A stretch of DNA of 44,525 nt, taken from contig CANHZI010000015.1 of the NCBI GenBank assembly GCA_947464955.1, positions 1-44,525 on the forward strand, written 5' to 3'. Below the pieces are notes generated by a model. It was not told the DNA's origin. It made no database searches and saw only the letters and a list, made by a program, of their open reading frames with translations. The stretch is from Oxalobacteraceae bacterium (GTDB lineage: Bacteria > Pseudomonadota > Gammaproteobacteria > Burkholderiales > Burkholderiaceae_D). Shown piece after piece: positions 8,434 through 34,514 of the stretch. Both the position numbers and the translations under genes were made by a program. Position 1 is the first letter of the stretch, and the number at the start of each line of letters is the position of its first letter.

Positions 8434-8841
8434 TTATTGATTTTGCAACATCTGATCTATCTTTTCAGCAACATCTTTCTTGTTGACAGGTTTTTCTATA
8501 TTGCCCAGGAAATTTTGGCGAGAAAGTTGTGCGACTAAGGAAGCTGAGTAAAGCACGCGAGAGCCTTGTCCAGACATTAAAATCACGCCACCAAAAAACT
8601 TACGTTCGCCCATCGCCTTCATGAACTCGAAGCCATCGATGTCGGGCATTTGGATGTCGCACAAAAGTAAGTCAGGCTTGGGATCCGCTTTGTCAAAGGC
8701 GCGAAGACCATCTTTTCCGCCTGTGGCTGTAGTGATGCGGGATATACCCATATCATTGAGCAAGTCGGACACAAAGTCGACTTGGAACTCATCGTCATCC
8801 ACAATCAATACACTCAGGTCTTGATATTTTGCATTACTCAT
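8434..8841 (-). CDS. Single-domain response regulator (CheY-like receiver)
   Basis: This 135-residue protein is a lone receiver domain with no output domain. Visible residues are the acidic cluster D15-D17, the phosphoacceptor D62 in LLLCDIQMPDIDG, the switch serine S90 in GGVILMSG and K117 in NIEKP. It begins 50 bp after the giant hybrid kinase on the same strand, and a terminator follows, so it is probably the kinase's soluble partner or a phosphate sink. Its receiver type, with GGVI(L/M)S and a long variable stretch before the KP motif, matches the third receiver of the kinase and resembles receivers normally joined to EAL domains. ATG 8841 is preceded by GAGGA about ten bases upstream. 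Confidence 0.9.
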   Translation of the reverse strand: MSNAKYQDLSVLIVDDDEFQVDFVSDLLNDMGISRITTATGGKDGLRAFDKADPKPDLLLCDIQMPDIDGFEFMKAMGERKFFGGVILMSGQGSRVLYSASLVAQLSRQNFLGNIEKPVNKKDVAEKIDQMLQNQ

Positions 8842-8891: not shown

Positions 8892-11800
8892 TCAGTTTGG
8901 GCGATTCCCCTCACGACGCATTTTTTTCTCCCACTCTATTTTCCATTCGATGAATTGATCTGCTGGCATTGGCTGCGCGACGAAGTAACCTTGCACCTCG
9001 TCACAACCTGATTCCGCGATCAAATCCCAATCCTGTTGCGTTTCGACGCCTTCTGCAACGAGGTTTAGATGGAATATTTTTCCTAGTTGAATACTTGAGC
9101 TGAGGATAGCTCGTGCTGCCTCATCTTGTACCGCGCCATTGACGAAAGCACGATCGACTTTTAATTCGGTAAACGGCAATTGTTTTAAGTTTTCCATGGT
9201 GGAGAAACCAGTACCGAAGTCATCAATAGAAAGGCCAAAACCTTTCAGACGTAAACGCGTCAGGATCTCTAAACTAACGGTTAAGTTCTCCATCAAGCGA
9301 GTTTCGGTCAACTCCAAAATGAATTGAGAAGGACGTACGCCTACCGCTTGTACGATAGATTCAAACTCTTCCGGCAAGTTCAATTGATTAAGATTGTCCA
9401 TGGAGACATTCACGGCAAGCTTCAGTTGATGTCCTTGGTTATACCATTTACGTAATTGGGCAGCGCTCTTCTCGAGAATAATCTTGGTCATAATATCAAT
9501 TAGACCATGTGTCTCTATCACAGAAATAAAAGCCGCCGGGCCGAGTAGACCACGCACGGGATGGCGCCAGCGGGCCAAACATTCGGCACCGATTACGCGT
9601 TTAGTGGCGATCGAAATCTTGGGTTGATAAAACACCTCAACACAATCGTCAGCGAAGCCTTTTTGAAGCTCTTGCAGCGACAGAACTGCCACCTTCGACA
9701 TGCGATGATGTTCTACACTCGATGGTGTTTGTTTGGCGAGCGCCTGCAACATTTCATCTTCGTTGAGGGGCTTACGCAGTGATGCCAAGAGGTGTAGGCC
9801 ATAGGCTTTGACTAAATTCTCAGCCGCCTTCATCACACTTCGATCGACAGAGCTGAGAATAATCACACCGCCTGTAAAATTGTGTTCTGCCGCAAAACGT
9901 AAGAAACTGATGCCGTCCATACCTGGCATATTCAAATCGCAAATAATAATATCAGGCTCGTAAGTGCGAACCACTGCCAAGGCTTGATTACCATCGGTAC
10001 AGGTAGAAATGTGGGTAATGCCAAACTTACGCAAGCTGGTACACACAATCTCCATATCAATGCGGTCGTCTTCTAACACGACCACATGCATATTTGGTTT
10101 TAGCGCGACAGGTGTTGAAGCCTTCACCGCATCTGTGCGGGCTTTATCTAACTTGATGATAATGTCTGGTGGCGGATCTGCAGGATTGAGATAGGCGGAG
10201 ATTTCCTGTTCTATCGTGACCAACATCGGAGTTAGTTCGGCAATGATTTTGTCCGCATCTTGCAGGCTTCCACCAGCCTTGAGCTGCTCTAGATTGTGGC
10301 AAAGATCGGCAAATTTACTGGCTCCCACCGTACGAGCACTTGATTTAAGACGATGACCTAATGCACATAGACCAGTTAGATCATTTGCTTCTCTTGCCTC
10401 TCTGATTTCTTGCAGGCTCCGCTGTGCGGAGTCGAGAAATTTAAGCGCAAATTTACCAATCTTATCGGGGGCATTGCCGACTAAACCTGCCAAGATGCTG
10501 AGGTCTATGGTTAAGCTTGGCAGCAAGGGCACTTCGGCTTGTTCGATGACTTCTTCCGGCAAGACGATCTCTTCAGTACTATCACTAATCCAACGTAAAA
10601 TTGTTGCGTACAAAATATCAGGCGCAAAGGGTTTCGGGATGAAGTCATTCATGCCAGCAGAAAGACAGTGAATGCGATCTTCATTCATGGCATTGGCAGT
10701 GATCGCAATCACTGGCAAATCTGCGTACTTGGCGTTGCTGCGGATGCGACGGGTTGCCTCTAAGCCGTCCATGATCGGCATTTGAATATCCATCAATACG
10801 CAGTCGAATTCATTCTCACTAATCGTATTGAGTGCTTGCTGACCATCACCCGCGACTTTGACTAAGCACTTGGCCGATTCCAGTAGCTCGGTACCCACTT
10901 GTTGGTTGAATTCATTGTCATCGACTAGCAAGATCCTAACCGGGTGCTCGGTTTGATTGATCCGTTTGAGGCGCGCCAATACGTTCTGTGGGGTGATGCT
11001 GCTACTCTTCTCAAGCGCAGGGCCTTTGGTTTGTTCCAACATGGCGGTAAACCAAAACGTGCTGCCCACATTTGGCGTGCTGATGACACCGACTTCGCCG
11101 CCCATTAAAATCGCCAATTGCTTACTGATCGCTAAGCCCAATCCAGTTCCACCATATTTACGTGTGGTGGAACTGTCGGCTTGTTCGAAAGATTGGAACA
11201 GTTTGGCCTGCTGTTCAGGCGTCATGCCAATTCCAGGATCTTCTACTTCAAATCTTACAAGCCAGCCGCTCGGCGTGTCATTGACTTTTCTGACGCGAAC
11301 CTTAATCTCGCCTTGCTCGGTGAACTTGATCGCATTATTGGTGTAATTGATCAAGATTTGACTCAGTCGATGCGGATCGCCATGCATATGCATAGGGACA
11401 TCAGGTGCCACCGATATCGACAAACTTAGGCGTCGTCCCGCGACTTTCGTGTTCATAATCGCCGACAGTTTATTCATCAGCTCTTCAAGACTAAAATCGA
11501 CGCCCTCGATGGTCATCTTGCCGGCTTCGATTTTTGAGAAGTCGAGAATATCATCGACGATATGCAAAAGATGTTGGCCTGAGAGATGAATCTTTTGCAG
11601 ATAGTCACGCAGCTTAGGATCGGTAGTGCTAGTGAGTGCTAAGTAGGTCATGCCTAACACGCCGTTCATCGGTGTGCGGATTTCATGACTCATATTGGCA
11701 ATGAAGTTACTCTTAGCCCGATTTGCGGCTTCTGCAAGCTGACGGGCTACCGCTAACTCTTCAGTGCGGCTCTCTACTAACTCCTCAAGATGATGTCTAT

Positions 11801-13712
11801 GCTTGTCGAGCTCTTCGCCCAGTTTCTTCTTCTCATTAATATCTTCTTGGGTTGATACAAAGTGTGTAATGGTGCCGTCGCTTTGTCGCAGCGGAGAGAT
11901 CGTTGCGTATTCGACTGAGAGGCTTCCATCTTTGCGTTTGTTGATTAACTCGCCTTTCCACGTTTCACCTGCTCGTATGGTTTTCCATAGCGTGCTAAAC
12001 ACTTCTTTCGGCGTTTGGCCTGAGTTAAGAATATTGGGATAGCGTCCAATCACCTCGGATTTCTCGTAGCCCGACTTTATTACAAAGGTCTGATTGACGT
12101 ATTCGATCTTCCCAATAACATCGGTGATGATGATGGCCTCGGTACTTTGTTCGACCGCCTGTGAGAGCTGGTTTAGCTGTGCTTCGTAAGTGAGACGTTG
12201 CGTGATGTCTTGGATTTGGGTGACGAAATTGACAGGCGTGCCGAAAGCATCTCGCACCAAAGAGATATTGCCTTGCAACCAAACCAAGGTTGAATCTTTG
12301 TGATAGTAACGCTTGTGAATCTCGTAACTTTCGATTTCACCTTTTAGTAACTGTTGTATTAGGTGCTTATCTGAGTTCACGTCATCCGGGTGCGTAAATT
12401 TCTTCCAATCGTGGCGTAATAATTCTTCTTCGCTATAGCCAAACATATTGCACAGAACACGATTCACACGTAAGACCTTGCCCTCGATATCAATCAAGGC
12501 CATACCGATTGGCGAGCTGCCGAAAGCTTGCTCCATACGTGCGTCGTTGAGGCGACGCTCCTCTTCAGCCTGTTTGCGTTCAGTGATGTCTTGGACGGTG
12601 CCAGTCAGACGTGTAATCTTGCCACGCGCATCTCTTTGTTTGCGGCCAGTTTTGGCCCAGATATTGCAAATACCCCCGTCAGGCAGAAAAATTCGATACT
12701 CGAATGGGGTGTATTCTGCGCGTTCTTGAAACGCCTCTTTACAGGTGCCGATGACGGTCGCTTGATCCTCTGGAAGCACAGTGCGCCGTATCATTTCGAA
12801 TAAGTCGCCATTGAACTCATCGGGGTCGCGTTGCCAGATCCTCTTCATCTCTTCCGACCAACTAATCTTGTTGGTCGACGCATCCCAGATCCAGTGACCA
12901 ACGTGGGACGACTTTTCGGCTTCAAGGAGGTCGTGCTCGCTTTGTCTTAGCGCTTCAAGCGTGCTTTTCCGCTCAGTGATATCACGGGTGATGCCGATAA
13001 AATGCGTCAGCTGCCCTTGCTCATCAAAGGCGGGTGTAATCGATAATTCGTTCCAGAACATCGATTCGTCTTTGCGATAATTGAGGATCTCGCCAAAATA
13101 GGGTTTGCCTTGTGAAATCGCCTCATGAATGGCCTGCCTACTGGCTGGGCTAGTGGCGGGCCCTTGTAAGATGCGGCAAGTGAGACCAACGATATCACTC
13201 GAGGAGTATCCCGTCTGTTCGGTGAATGCTTGGTTAATCGATATGATCTTTTGATCTGGCGTGGTGATAATGACGCCTTGGGAAATGGCTTTCAGCGCCA
13301 AATCGCTGATTTGCAATTTGGTTTCCGCTTGGTGCTTATACAGTGCCATCTCGATGACGGCACGTAATTCCTGATCAGAGAAAGGTTTGACGATATAGCC
13401 AAAGGCATTTGCTTGAGTGGCCCGTTTGAAATCTACTTCAGACTTGTTCCCAGTGAGGAAAACCACCGGTAGAGTGAAGTTGGCGCGTATTTTTTCGGCT
13501 GCGACAATCCCATCCATTTCACCCGCAAGCTGGATGTCCATCAGGATCAGATCTGGTTTGAGTTTACCAGCTAGCTCGATGGCTTCTTCGCCGCGCGAGG
13601 TCTGACCGACGGTTTGATAGCCAAATAATTCCAGTTTGAGCTGGATAAATATGGCTACTAATTCGTCGTCTTCGACAATCAATATCCTTGGTTTGCTTGG
13701 CGACTCTAGCAC
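8892..13712 (-). CDS. Giant hybrid histidine kinase with LOV-like PAS, phosphorelay and EAL output domain
   Basis: This 1606-residue soluble protein has no membrane helix. Domains in order: receiver 1 (8-122, D59); PAS1 (134-250, LOV-like, C179 in GLTCRILQG); PAS2 (262-382); PAS3 (392-507); PAS4 (514-628); coiled coil (630-670); HisKA (H676 in SHEIRTP); HATPase (N793, [13 protein letters not shown]); receiver 2 (925-1042, D975); Hpt (about 1075-1165, H1120); receiver 3 (1208-1325, D1259); EAL (1340-1595). The EAL domain reads ECLAR and keeps N1435 in NVS, ELTE, D1497-D1498 and EGVE, so c-di-GMP hydrolysis is likely. A complete phosphorelay H676-D975-H1120-D1259 could control the diesterase within one chain. 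The start is GTG 13712 with GGAG six bases before it. The gene lies between a chemoreceptor and a lone receiver. Confidence 0.93.
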
Positions 13713-13816: not shown

Positions 13817-14968
13817 TTAGAAGAAAGTAATTTCCGAGTCATTGCTAACTGCCGCGGCACCACCAGAACCATGACTACGATGCTCATCGTGCATGGTATA
13901 AGTATTTTTCAACTCGTCCAACCAAGTCGCCGTTTCAGGGAAATTTCCATTGTTAAATTCAGCGGCAGTCTTCTCTAGTTTGGCAATGTCGTTTTTCACC
14001 ACTTGTAGAATTTGGCTGATGCGATCTTGGAACTGGAGAGTGACTAAGAGATCTTCAATATCGCTGCGAATTACATTGCCGTGATGAAGCATTTGTTGAG
14101 CCGCATCGCCCATGGTTTCGACATGGGATAAAACGTCCCGCACAACCGCGCCAGACACCTCGAGCACTTTTTTGTCTTGAATGGCCGAACGGTCGGCTGC
14201 ACTCAGCGCGACTTTCATCACAGCAGAGATATGGTTGACACGTTCACCCATGCGTTTTCCCGTCTCTGCAGACAGTTGGGAAAGCTTGCGAACTTCGTCC
14301 GCAACGACGGCGAAACCACGGCCTTGGATGCCGACGCGCGCGGCTTCAATCGCGGCATTAATCGCTAGCAAATTTGTCTGTGCTGCGATTTGTCCTACCT
14401 CATGCGCCATATTGTTCATGTCTGCAGTCGATTTGGCTAGATCACGTATGCAGTTGAGGAGCTCATCTTTGCTATCAATCATTTGCGATAGTGAATTAAT
14501 CACAGGAGCCAGCTCTTTTTTGCAGAGCTGCAGCAAAGTGATGGTGGCGTCAGAATTTTTAGCAGCATTGAGTTCAACATTGCTGACCCCACCAAAACCA
14601 GCTTTATCGAACTCGTGCACCATCGATGAGAAACTCATGATTAATTGTTGTACCGACTGCTCAGAATGGTTCTTTACTGTTTCAACATGGGAATTCCACA
14701 GCGGCAAAATGTTCTGCAGCAGATCACCTAAACGATGTGCCAGTTCAGCGTCGAGTTGGAGTTTCTCATCTTCCGCTTCTAGGCTCTCTTGAACTGCAAA
14801 ACTGCGGAGTAAGGTGGTTACCATCAGCACCGTGATGATACCGATCAAAACAACGAGACCAAAACTAAGAAAGCTAGGCTGTTGCCAAGCTAAGATAAGC
14901 GCCAGCAAGCAAACCGCGCCGCCGCTAATGTAAGCAAAAACTGGTTGCCGAAAAAAATCTTTTTGCAT
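13817..14968 (-). CDS. Methyl-accepting chemotaxis protein-like receptor without periplasmic domain
   Basis: This protein of about 383 residues has two membrane helices near the N-terminus, separated only by a few residues (WQQPSFLSF), and then a cytoplasmic coiled-coil region. The signalling tip is clear: LLAINAAIEAARVGIQGRG followed by FAVVADEVRKLSQLSAETG, the contact site for CheA/CheW in this family. A later LQFQDRISQIL segment also occurs in other betaproteobacterial receptors. With almost no external part it probably senses an intracellular or membrane signal. ATG 14968 is chosen because AGGA lies about ten bases upstream; a TTG at 15004 has no such support. It is probably the first gene of the operon that continues with the hybrid kinase. 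Confidence 0.9.
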   Translation of the reverse strand: MQKDFFRQPVFAYISGGAVCLLALILAWQQPSFLSFGLVVLIGIITVLMVTTLLRSFAVQESLEAEDEKLQLDAELAHRLGDLLQNILPLWNSHVETVKNHSEQSVQQLIMSFSSMVHEFDKAGFGGVSNVELNAAKNSDATITLLQLCKKELAPVINSLSQMIDSKDELLNCIRDLAKSTADMNNMAHEVGQIAAQTNLLAINAAIEAARVGIQGRGFAVVADEVRKLSQLSAETGKRMGERVNHISAVMKVALSAADRSAIQDKKVLEVSGAVVRDVLSHVETMGDAAQQMLHHGNVIRSDIEDLLVTLQFQDRISQILQVVKNDIAKLEKTAAEFNNGNFPETATWLDELKNTYTMHDEHRSHGSGGAAAVSNDSEITFF

Positions 14969-15304
14969 AATTACCCATCCTGATTGATGTGTCTTACGAG
15001 GCAATGTGTCTCACCAATGCTCATACTTGATCAAGCTGAGTCTTAATTGGTGAAATCCTTGAGCAACTATTGCCCGCACTCTGCTGCTTTTCGATTTACT
15101 TCTCGTTCTTTGCTACTGGCTTTCTACTTGTTCCAGTTAGGCTGAACCCGGAATGAATCGCATCCCAGCATTCACATGATGGCTGTGTAGAAAGTATTAC
15201 GAATGATTTTAAACAAGTTTTGAGCGTCCTTGCATTAAAAAACGTTCAATTGGGAAATTAGTTTCCAAAAAACATCACTTCTCAACTTGCGTTTTAGCTA
15301 ACTA
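14969..15304. other. Intergenic region between chemoreceptor and pcp
   Basis: These 336 bases hold no convincing gene. They must contain the chemoreceptor operon promoter, but I could not pick a good -35/-10 pair. A weak hairpin at 15250-15268 (TTGGGAAA with TTTCCAA, loop TTAG) is followed on the minus strand, after seven bases, by six T residues (15237-15242) and may be the terminator of the 5-oxoproline operon. Confidence 0.4.
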
Positions 15305-31331: not shown

Positions 31332-34300
31332 ATGGCAAACAAACCAAAACAAGATGCTTGGGAAGTACCTTTGTCGGTATTGGTATCCTGTGTTTTGGTG
31401 ATCCTAGTTGTGATCGTCGCGCAAACATGGTGGTCGATTGAGCAGGATCGTACCCTGACTCTGGCTGCTGCGAATAAGAATAGTCTACTCAACACGCGAC
31501 TTTTTGAAGAGCACGCGAATCGTATTTTGAATGATGCGAGTCGAGAGATTGTGGCGGCGGCGGAAAATTTACAAAGTCAACCGAACAGTGTCTTGAAAGA
31601 CGAAGCAGCGGTGCGTCAAGTTTTGGGCGCACAACGGCGCGGCTCGCCTTTTATTCATGCCTTGTCTTTGGTTGATAATCGGGGTTTATTGTGGGCGTCG
31701 TCTGCACGCTTTCCGGTCGAGCAAATCGATCTCTCAAATCAAGATTACGTTAAATTTCTCAGTAAAGGTTCGAACGCTTTGCAGCGTAATGTGGTCTTAG
31801 GCGCCGTCTTTAAATCCAAGAAATCAAATCAAGAATTCTTGCCCATCGCGCGCAATTACTTCGATAGTGAAGGCAAAAATCTAGGACAAGTGCAAGCTGA
31901 AATCAATCTCGCGTATTTTCAAGAATTCTATGAACGCGTCGCCAAAGACGCTAGCGCAAAAGTCTCGTTATATGACAAGAACGGCGAAGTCATTGTGCAA
32001 GCCATGTCAGATAAGAGCCAATATCGAAAAGATGAGCTTGATTCTGCGGTGGCCAACCAAATTAGAGAAGTGATTGCCGAGACAGGTCGAGTTGAGGCTG
32101 CAATTAGTGGTAGCGATCAAGCGCTTGCATACACACTGCTAAAAATGAGTGACTTCCCGCTTGTCGTGGTGTTCGGACGTGATCTCGACACCATACTGCT
32201 TGAGTGGAAAAAAAGGCTTGAGCAAAAACTCCTATTTGCCGCATGCTCAATCATTTTTACTTTGATTCTTGCCTTTCTTCTGTATAAGAAAATTACAAGT
32301 CTTCGTCTCTCTAGGGAACGATTGAGTGATAGCGAAAGACGTTATCGTTTATTGTTTCAAGACGCGCAAGACGGAATCTTGTTGATTGATAAGTCCTATC
32401 GATTTGTTGATGGTAATCAGAATGCCTTAGAGATGTTAGCAGTCGATGTAAAGGCAGATCTATATAGTTTAGATATTGGTGAATTCTCTGCGGATTGGCG
32501 TTACACGCAGCCGACTGTCGCGGCAAAGAAAGCGGAGGCCATCAAAAAATTTGTGGACCTCGCTTTCAAGGGACATGTTCAAAAATTTGAGTGGATTGCG
32601 CATCGACGCGGCAAAGATTGGTTTAGTGAAGTCACCTTGAGTCGAGTAAAAATCTCGAATGAGACGATCGTGTTTTGTGTGATGCGCGATATCTCTCAAC
32701 GCAAGCACGCAGAACGCTTGCTACAGGGGCAAAATCAATTATTACAACTAATCGGCAGCAGCGAAAGTTTAGAGTCGATTCTGATTGACACTTGCCATTT
32801 TGTCGAACGTAATAATCCGCACTGGCACTGTGGCGTGCAACTTTTATCGATCGATCAAAAAGTATTCACACAGACAATCGGCCATCATTTTCCGGAAATT
32901 TTGCGCCGACAGCTAACTGAGGCTCCTGTGTGTCGAGGCAATGGCGTTTGGAGTGAAGCTGTATTAGGGGTTGTGCCAGTTTGGGTGACGGACATTCCTC
33001 GAGCGTCTGAAATGGAGTTCATCGTACAGCGTAAACTTCTAGCCAACTATGCTGCCGTTGGTTCCTGGCCAATTATGGGTAAAACGGGTCTCATTCTCGG
33101 TGCGTTCACGCTCTTCACAGAGTCGACCGCTGCCTTATCGAATGAGGATCTAAGTCTAATCAGCATCGCAACAGACGTCTCCAGCATTGCGATCGAAGGC
33201 AAGCGCGCGGAGGAAAAGGCAATACGATTAGCCCATTACGACGAAATTACAAAACTGCCAAATCGATTCCTATTTAATCAATATTTATCGAAAGCCCTGA
33301 CTTACGCCGAAGATAGCAATTCTAGTCTCGCTGTTTTGCTGCTAGATTTAGATAGGTTTAAGGCGATCAATGATAGTTTTGATCACGAAGAAGGCGATAA
33401 AGTATTACGTAATATTGCTGAACGTTTGAAGTCGGAACTGTCTGATTCCGACACCATTGCACGCGTTGGTGGTGATGAGTTTATGCTCCTGCTTGACCGC
33501 TATAAAACCCCACGCGAGCTCACTGATATTGCAGATAGGCTCTTGCAATCGGCGGCCACCCCTTTCGAAATTAATGGTCAAGAGCTACAAATCAGTGCAA
33601 GTATTGGTATCGCGGTCTATCCAGAAGATGGCGCTGACTCTCAAGTTCTGATGAAAAATTCAGAAATTGCGATGTATCGAGCCAAGCATAATGGTAAGAA
33701 CAATTACCAGTTCTATGACGCCAATATGAACGTGCATACGATAGAGCGCCTCGCTTTTGAAGCACAATTGCGTCGTGCCTTGGACAACCATGAATTTGTG
33801 GTTCATTACCAACCCAAAGTTAGTGTGAAGACTGGCCAAATCCTTGGTGCTGAAGCTCTGGTTCGTTGGCAGCATCCGGAAACTGGTTTGATCTATCCGA
33901 CGGAGTTCATTGGTTTGGCCGAGGAAGCTGGTTTGGTGGGCAAAATGGGAATGCAAGTGCTTGATTTGGTATGTAGTGGCATTGCCAAGTTTAGGCTTGC
34001 AGAGAAGCGCTTTGGCCGGATCGCAATTAATCTCTCTGGTGCTCAATTTAATGATGATAATTTGCTCAGTGAATTACAAAGAGTGATCGATTACTGGGAA
34101 ATCTCATCGAGTGATATCGAGTTTGAAATTACCGAGAGTATGGTGATGAATAACCATGAACAAGCGATTGCCCACATGGATGGCTTAAAGGCAGCCGGCT
34201 ACACACTCTCAATTGACGACTTTGGTACCGGCTACTCTTCATTGGCCTATTTGAAGCGCTTCCCCGTCAATAGCCTGAAAATTGATCGTTCGTTTATTCA

Positions 34301-34514
34301 GGATATGCCGAATGACGCCAACGATACTGCTATCGTGCTCGCCATTATTGCTATGGCGAAAACGCTGGGACTCAAAGTGGTCGCTGAAGGCGTCGAAAAT
34401 AAAGTGCAACTTGAAACCTTGATCCAAAGTCAGTGCGATGAATACCAAGGTTTCTATTTTTCCAAGGCGGTGCCCGAAGAAGCTTTCATGGCATTACTCG
34501 ATTCCAAAACCTAG
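31332..34514 (+). CDS. Membrane CACHE-like-PAS-GAF-GGDEF-EAL c-di-GMP enzyme
   Basis: This 1060-residue inner-membrane protein has a first helix at 13-33, an extracytoplasmic sensor of about 260 residues (dCACHE-like), a second helix at 298-318, PAS (about 330-460), GAF (about 465-625), GGDEF (about 630-795) and EAL (about 800-1058). The cyclase signature is intact (RVGGDEF, G713-F717). The inhibitory RxxD site is lost: S704-DSD replaces R at the first position. The diesterase signature E841-A-L-V-R, NLSGAQF, EITES, D962-D963, LKIDRSF and EGVE are all present. Both activities are therefore possible. It starts at ATG 31332 with AAAGGAAA upstream. It lies after rnpB and is followed by a terminator. 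Confidence 0.94.
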   Translation: MANKPKQDAWEVPLSVLVSCVLVILVVIVAQTWWSIEQDRTLTLAAANKNSLLNTRLFEEHANRILNDASREIVAAAENLQSQPNSVLKDEAAVRQVLGAQRRGSPFIHALSLVDNRGLLWASSARFPVEQIDLSNQDYVKFLSKGSNALQRNVVLGAVFKSKKSNQEFLPIARNYFDSEGKNLGQVQAEINLAYFQEFYERVAKDASAKVSLYDKNGEVIVQAMSDKSQYRKDELDSAVANQIREVIAETGRVEAAISGSDQALAYTLLKMSDFPLVVVFGRDLDTILLEWKKRLEQKLLFAACSIIFTLILAFLLYKKITSLRLSRERLSDSERRYRLLFQDAQDGILLIDKSYRFVDGNQNALEMLAVDVKADLYSLDIGEFSADWRYTQPTVAAKKAEAIKKFVDLAFKGHVQKFEWIAHRRGKDWFSEVTLSRVKISNETIVFCVMRDISQRKHAERLLQGQNQLLQLIGSSESLESILIDTCHFVERNNPHWHCGVQLLSIDQKVFTQTIGHHFPEILRRQLTEAPVCRGNGVWSEAVLGVVPVWVTDIPRASEMEFIVQRKLLANYAAVGSWPIMGKTGLILGAFTLFTESTAALSNEDLSLISIATDVSSIAIEGKRAEEKAIRLAHYDEITKLPNRFLFNQYLSKALTYAEDSNSSLAVLLLDLDRFKAINDSFDHEEGDKVLRNIAERLKSELSDSDTIARVGGDEFMLLLDRYKTPRELTDIADRLLQSAATPFEINGQELQISASIGIAVYPEDGADSQVLMKNSEIAMYRAKHNGKNNYQFYDANMNVHTIERLAFEAQLRRALDNHEFVVHYQPKVSVKTGQILGAEALVRWQHPETGLIYPTEFIGLAEEAGLVGKMGMQVLDLVCSGIAKFRLAEKRFGRIAINLSGAQFNDDNLLSELQRVIDYWEISSSDIEFEITESMVMNNHEQAIAHMDGLKAAGYTLSIDDFGTGYSSLAYLKRFPVNSLKIDRSFIQDMPNDANDTAIVLAIIAMAKTLGLKVVAEGVENKVQLETLIQSQCDEYQGFYFSKAVPEEAFMALLDSKT

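Follow-up and report, generated by a model that had tools for sequence, protein, structure and literature searches.

The described systems closest to the domain considered here are light-oxygen-voltage (LOV) domains without the Gln late in the domain, of which about 350 natural examples were reported by Dietler et al. (2022; PMC9098866). According to the accessible text of that article, a natural Gln-less LOV from Mesorhizobium loti is still light-responsive, one assayed as a LOV-GGDEF protein is repressed by blue light, and most late-Gln substitutions in YF1 leave the protein light-responsive, the exceptions being Pro, His, Trp, Tyr and Arg. For the Asn preceding the adduct Cys, the available part of PMC10751770 reports that AsLOV2 N449 variants with A, I, K or T do not bind flavin, that the E variant does, and that the S variant recovers about 60-fold faster. 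Related departures include Cys-less LOV-like proteins that respond to flavin reduction (PMC4682037, in the portion available) and EL346, which the accessible text of PMC8694187 lists as a riboflavin-binding LOV. A LOV with the full Arg cluster was only about 10% flavin-loaded in the available part of PMC5314338, which implies that sequence alone does not predict loading. Literature searches found nothing joining Undibacterium with light-oxygen-voltage and nothing on degenerate or pseudo-LOV domains, and none of the literature matches listed joined Undibacterium with blue light or photoreceptor.

The window, that is, the whole stretch of 44,525 nucleotides that was analysed, comes from an Undibacterium-like genome (assembly of 4.66 Mb in 274 contigs). 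It encodes a hybrid kinase whose first PAS domain, PAS1, has its nearest named relative in Undibacterium nitidum (95%).

LOV descent of PAS1 in a hybrid kinase

The 117 residues of PAS1, which include a 26-residue and a 10-residue stretch carrying the LOV-like sequence, were described in a preliminary description as a LOV-like PAS domain in a giant hybrid kinase, and translation, PDB matches, fold and phylogeny all agree with this (Table 1). A phmmer search of the PDB with PAS1 returned 152 sequences at E up to 0.001, with MrLOV as the best (1.6e-28). Among the best 60 of these 152, the first clear non-LOV, MmoS (3ewk), ranks 40th (1.9e-20), and most of the other matches are LOVs by table name or title, a few such as 7oo9, 8c05 and 29lw being left aside. 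The controls behaved differently: PAS4 of the same protein had MmoS (4.6e-34) and NifL as its top matches and Aer in fourth place, LOVs appearing only from 2.7e-11; PAS3 gave four weak matches; and a PAS domain of another genome (L066) had MmoS and NifL on top. An AlphaFold2 model of PAS1 (27 aligned sequences; mean pLDDT 84.2, pTM 0.73) superimposes on CagLOV with an rmsd of 0.7 A over 104 columns, and the titles of the best 50 of 612 Foldseek matches (E up to 0.001) all name LOVs, although the model alignment included canonical LOVs and may favour LOV fold matches. Canonical LOVs have an Abeta-Bbeta loop 2-3 residues longer than that of PAS1.

The phylogenetic analysis used 92 of 180 rows (175 plus 5 references) and 126 columns, after 14 duplicate loci (L001, L084, L010-L021) and rows with short cores had been left out of the alignment; the tree is limited by these few columns, by two very long own-genome rows and by an outgroup that does not form one side of any branch. 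PAS1 falls inside a LOV clade of 72 rows (support 95/88), which comprises a long-loop branch of 39 rows (99/88) holding three reference LOVs and a short-loop branch of 33 rows (99/87) holding PAS1. Within the latter, PAS1 belongs to a set of 25 rows without the late Gln (99/92), whose other members are Methylococcaceae/Methylococcales domains, two other Undibacterium-genus proteins, one same-family protein, one Opitutae MAG and one Pseudomonadota MAG, and the 12 PAS1 orthologues form a single clade (100/99). Both N-C-R and the late Gln are retained in two short-loop domains at the base of the branch (L023 and L085); loss of the Gln within the short-loop branch would thus be the simplest reading. 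PAS1 lies outside the MmoS/NifL group in this tree. PAS1 is therefore of LOV descent, as the PDB matches, the fold matches and the tree indicate together. In the Gln-less branch, L053:6001-6354 and L056:6001-6354 have no Cys at its site (GKDYCLLEG, with Cys one residue later, and GRNPGFLWG).

Table 1. Features of the hybrid kinase, its neighbours and the PAS1 pocket, in window coordinates
Feature	Position	Strand	Basis
Hybrid kinase, 1606 aa, REC-PAS1-PAS2-PAS3-PAS4-HisKA-HATPase-REC-Hpt-REC-EAL	8892..13712	-	ORF list, Pfam
REC1 receiver domain with the helix that leads to PAS1	13338..13685	-	Pfam, motif residues, alignment
PAS1, LOV-derived PAS domain (residues 134-250)	12963..13313	-	translation, PDB, fold, tree
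10-residue motif (residues 176-185), counterpart of GxNCRFLQG	13158..13187	-	translation, alignment, DNA pattern match
Thr178, replacing ribityl-binding Asn; T 12/12	13179..13181	-	alignment
Cys179, adduct-cysteine position; C 11, F 1 of 12	13176..13178	-	alignment
Arg180, phosphate-side Arg; R 7, A 2, G 1, S 1, L 1 of 12	13173..13175	-	alignment, site rates
His196, at F-helix phosphate Arg site; R 4, H 2, E 2, A 2, D 1, V 1 of 12	13125..13127	-	alignment, site rates
Asn211, first ring-binding Asn; N 12/12	13080..13082	-	alignment
Asn221, second ring-binding Asn; N 11, S 1 of 12	13050..13052	-	alignment
Thr242, replacing late Gln (I strand); T 10, S 1, M 1 of 12	12987..12989	-	alignment
PAS4, nearest PDB entries the FAD-binding redox PAS proteins MmoS and NifL	11829..12185	-	phmmer vs PDB
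EAL domain (c-di-GMP phosphodiesterase type)	8970..9674	-	Pfam, motif residues
MCP-signal-domain protein, upstream of kinase	13817..15004	-	Pfam; adjoins kinase in 11/11 other orthologous loci
Single-domain response regulator, downstream of kinase	8434..8841	-	Pfam; kept in 10/11 other loci (L046 match weak, 24%)

Pfam recognized three receiver stretches, PAS families, HisKA, HATPase_c, Hpt and EAL in the hybrid kinase, and no GGDEF. The predicted output is thus c-di-GMP breakdown only, and the "turnover" proposed initially should be worded as breakdown. The motifs of HisKA, REC2, Hpt and EAL that were looked for, whose residues presumably have the catalytic roles usually assigned to them, are largely intact across the orthologues, and all 11 orthologues with an EAL domain have ECL as its signature; L046, whose frame stops at 1118 aa, was scored as lacking Hpt and EAL. 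In REC1 (13662-13676, residues 13-17), the acidic pair is E-D in the window and E-S or E-C in 7 of 12 orthologues; with the second acidic residue gone, the REC1 of some members of the lineage may be a pseudo-receiver. In REC3 the acidic pair varies among the orthologues. The gene order Pcp, MCP-like, kinase, REC is common to the 11 other orthologous loci, counting the weak REC match in L046, and an SSF gene comes next in nine, which are all those whose stretch reaches that far. The PDB ranking of PAS4 suggests that, in addition to PAS1, the hybrid kinase may contain a flavin-based redox sensor. Elsewhere in the window, another PAS_9 match lies at 32370-32699(+), within a 1060-aa frame (31332-34514).

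Flavin-pocket residues among orthologues and relatives

Pocket residues were compared across 12 orthologues, namely those from 11 of 43 genus genomes (the source genome included) with a PAS1 of at least 65% identity, plus U. nitidum; eight of the 12 occur twice, under a G handle and as a named record, and each was counted once. The residues that we take to be the AsLOV2 counterparts were placed by alignment. Contact roles were drawn partly from the accessible text of PMC5314338 and PMC13322254. Instead of GxNCRFLQ, PAS1 reads GLTCRILQ, with Thr for Asn and Ile (181) for Phe, so that, set against the definition of Gln-deficient LOVs, it lacks not only the late Gln but the motif Asn and Phe as well. 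Of the pair of phosphate Arg residues the window domain keeps Arg180, with His196 in place of the second; both are present in its two nearest relatives, U. nitidum and G038. The motif Gln (Q183) is Q in 11 of the 12 orthologues and Y in one. In U. fentianense (L047), which has Phe at the Cys site, the next Arg and the motif Gln are also gone, and even there the PAS1 domain and its helices are conserved.

The placement of Cys179 at the photoactive cysteine position is supported by alignment, PDB, fold and tree, and its presence in all orthologues except U. fentianense means that it also withstood comparison across homologues, the check on which the preliminary description had staked it. The two deviations listed there, Asn to Thr (178) and Gln to Thr (242), are both correct, but the list is incomplete, given His196, Ile181 and the short Abeta-Bbeta loop. 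Site-rate percentiles within PAS1, from the 12-row tree, are 8 for T178, 56 for C179, 93 for R180, 53 for Q183, 97 for H196, 12 for N211, 51 for N221 and 64 for T242. Residue counts and site rates together imply that the phosphate side varies, that the ring side is mostly held and that the Asn site is fixed as Thr. An unusual constraint on Cys179 was rejected on its mid-range percentile.

The comparison groups were hand-picked. The 25 canonical LOVs were chosen for N-C-R and the late Gln (five D-C-R rows lie outside them), hence their Asn, Cys, Arg and Gln counts are full by choice; both ring Asn residues are present in all 25 and the F-helix Arg in 17. Ten NCR-type relatives without the late Gln have Asn in 9, Cys in 10, Arg in 9 (the tenth having Lys) and the ring Asn residues in 10 and 9, and nine non-Cys LOV-like relatives have Pro at the Cys site in every case, Arg and the first ring Asn in nine and the second ring Asn in none. 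Proline, proposed earlier as the usual residue at this site, thus holds for the non-Cys LOV-like domains and not for PAS domains at large, judging from the source genome, where 36 of the PAS domains surveyed (57 stretches plus the four of the hybrid kinase) have an aligned letter at the site: P in 7, I in 6, H in 6 and Cys only in PAS1. Relative to the whole domain, the E-helix motif block is conserved 1.03x in the PAS1 orthologues vs 1.47 in the canonical LOVs, 1.49 in the non-Cys relatives and 1.18 in the NCR relatives. Variability of the F-helix was rejected as a sign of erosion by itself, being the highest of the domain in all four groups (0.52-0.70 of the domain mean), and the case for erosion is therefore built on the motif block together with the Asn and the Arg.

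The DNA pattern G-x-T-C-(R/S)-x-L-Q-G was matched in 3 of 398 genomes of a phylum sample, one of them the source genome. The two other matches were rejected as LOVs by eye, since one has a stop within the motif and the other lies in a frame that shows no PAS features, and no T-C-R LOV motif was found in the other genomes of this sample. The N-C form of the pattern occurs in 46 of the 398 genomes, at 78 sites. The source genome also encodes a LOV-like PAS with Pro at the Cys site (L006/L118, G000:C61; GLNPRMLQG) and two BLUF domains (L070, G000:C140:8456-8731; L071, G000:C8:26168-26437), and a search of it for PHY domains gave 0 matches. The BLUF domains make blue-light sensing by other proteins of the genome likely.

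A different PAS domain in the same slot of sister kinases

The downstream REC gene is present in 21 of 43 genus genomes, 11 of which have no LOV-type PAS1. Nine of these 11 loci were examined (all except G028 and G007), and in seven the sequence could be read across the slot between REC1 and PAS2; the frame begins past the slot in G014 and the contig stops before it in G021. All seven readable loci, from seven related species, have a different PAS domain in this slot, flanked by linkers like those of the LOV-type kinases (a 12-residue stretch before, an EALRQSELDL-like one after). L172 has two PAS domains there, and the one slot domain tested, that of L176, has PAS_4 as its best match and two weak PDB matches, neither of them a LOV. 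A different PAS in exactly the same slot of orthologous kinases implies that the module was exchanged in place. In both the PAS2-EAL tree and the REC1 tree, the LOV-type proteins lie on one side of a branch (100/100 and 100/98), so a single exchange suffices. L172 joins the LOV-type set in the unrooted REC1 tree (100/99), and its position would fit a gain of the LOV module, as far as unrooted trees can suggest a direction. Of 294 family genomes, a PAS2-PAS3 query matched 13 at an E cut-off of 1e-50; every one belongs to the same genus, and G005 and G016, whose slot loci are readable, fell below this cut-off. The kinase frame of G014 (L171) has a REC1 match upstream of it, and this short frame and that of L046 represent either shortened proteins or assembly errors.

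Possible roles of PAS1 and relation to known LOV systems

The explanation that we favour, with about even confidence, is that PAS1 is a LOV-derived domain in which flavin binding is most likely weak or lost and which serves mainly as a dimerisation and relay module. In one Undibacterium lineage, the LOV-descended PAS1 stands in the REC1-PAS2 slot that other PAS domains fill in sister species. It keeps the fold of a LOV, both signalling helices (A' and J) and the ring side of the pocket, but has neither the late Gln nor the Asn preceding the Cys, and some members of the lineage have lost the phosphate Arg too; these losses would probably leave little or no flavin binding. PAS1 would then act mainly on the REC1-to-PAS2 helix and not as an efficient blue-light receptor. 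We infer that the inputs of the hybrid kinase pass through the His kinase to REC2, Hpt, REC3 and EAL, whose predicted activity would degrade c-di-GMP; which way this route would shift EAL activity is likewise tentative. The pocket is considered compromised because of Thr178, fixed in all 12 orthologues, the loss of Arg180 in five, and the AsLOV2 N449T result, and in U. fentianense Cys, Arg and motif Gln are all gone. Against an eroded pocket stand the Cys and the motif Gln, each kept in 11 of 12, the ring Asn residues, kept in 12 and 11, the Arg180 of the window domain itself and the pair of phosphate Arg residues in U. nitidum and G038; retention of the Cys and of the ring Asn pair supports retained flavin, yet the Cys-less relatives have lost the second ring Asn (0 of 9). 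The N449T result may not carry over to the PAS1 background, and a photoactive PpSB-type LOV among the PDB matches has Asp before the Cys, so Asn is not strictly required. The missing Gln, singled out originally as a possible cause of altered signalling, is not the main obstacle, its loss being widely tolerated according to the available part of PMC9098866. By analogy with these variants, the change from Asn to Thr would be graver for the PAS1 flavin pocket than the loss of Gln.

The same retained residues (Cys, motif Gln and ring Asn pair), the CagLOV-like fold, the signalling of Gln-less LOVs in the accessible text of PMC9098866 and the two BLUF domains, which suggest that blue light may matter to the cell, favour PAS1 as a working Gln-less photoreceptor. 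Flavin would be bound, Cys179 would form an adduct in blue light, and a shifted kinase/phosphatase balance would alter EAL activity, probably with a fast or attenuated cycle. The loss of flavin from AsLOV2 N449T (PMC10751770, in the part available), the absence of a T-C-R LOV motif from the other sampled genomes and the loss of Arg180 and, once, of Cys among the orthologues speak against this, and we regard it as possible but doubtful. A blue-light photocycle or sensing in the window's own PAS1 is placed at about one third on the basis of its residues, and blue-light control of c-di-GMP by the hybrid kinase is hypothetical. Somewhat unlikely, in our estimate, is a LOV lineage in transition from photoreceptor to a different sensor, which kept the adduct Cys and ring contacts, lost the ribityl Asn and repeatedly the phosphate Arg, and may bind unphosphorylated flavin or answer another cue, with U. 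fentianense as the Cys-less end point. A held ring side beside a variable phosphate side would also suit another kind of sensor on the LOV scaffold, either a redox sensor holding a flavin without phosphate contacts (riboflavin or FAD) or a receptor for another ligand with Cys179 as a thiol. Riboflavin binding by EL346 (PMC8694187) and the flavin-reduction responses of Cys-less LOVs (PMC4682037), both as given in the text available, agree with such a sensor, as does the likeness of PAS4 to redox-flavin PAS domains; however, any such ligand is putative, and the ribityl chain, which every flavin has, is contacted by the very site that is fixed as Thr, which makes this quite improbable. That PAS1 is an ordinary PAS domain with a Cys and LOV-like residues by chance is barely credible and was rejected: sequence, fold and tree, read with the PAS4, PAS3 and L066 controls, group it with LOVs, and its short Abeta-Bbeta loop, otherwise a feature of ordinary PAS domains, also occurs in L023 and L085, which have N-C-R and the late Gln.

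The LOV-type set spans nearly complete pockets to a Cys-less one and offers a natural series in which the pocket residues necessary to a LOV, and the ability of a LOV module to signal with no flavin bound, could be tested. It is also a warning that a Cys within a LOV-like motif is insufficient to call a photoreceptor. The occurrence of a LOV-type domain and of a different PAS in one slot of orthologous kinases is new here.

PAS1 shares with the natural Gln-deficient LOVs, as described in the accessible text of PMC9098866, its LOV descent, the adduct Cys, the absence of the late Gln and a link to c-di-GMP enzymes (LOV-GGDEF-EAL in their case); unlike them, it has neither the Asn preceding the Cys nor the F-helix Arg, its Abeta-Bbeta loop is short, and it follows a receiver domain in a phosphorelay kinase. 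Its nearest relatives in the tree, the Methylococcaceae short-loop Gln-less LOVs (L048-L052, L054, L055 and L057), have the same short loop and A' helix but keep Asn-Cys-Arg in 8 of 8, and sit in PAS-GGDEF, GGDEF-EAL or kinase proteins, or, in L048, with PAS domains only. Canonical LOVs (CagLOV, MrLOV, YtvA) have the fold, the Cys, the ring Asn pair and the motif Gln in common with PAS1, which differs in its missing ribityl Asn and late Gln and its shorter loop. MmoS/NifL-type FAD PAS domains resemble it as short-loop PAS domains of multi-PAS sensor kinases, but have no adduct Cys and form a tree group that excludes PAS1, and it is PAS4 that resembles them. The Cys-less LOV-like domains, in the portion of PMC4682037 available, likewise combine a LOV scaffold with an altered active site, but in them it is the Cys that has been replaced, with the remaining contacts kept; PAS1 shows the opposite, a retained Cys and losses among the other contacts.
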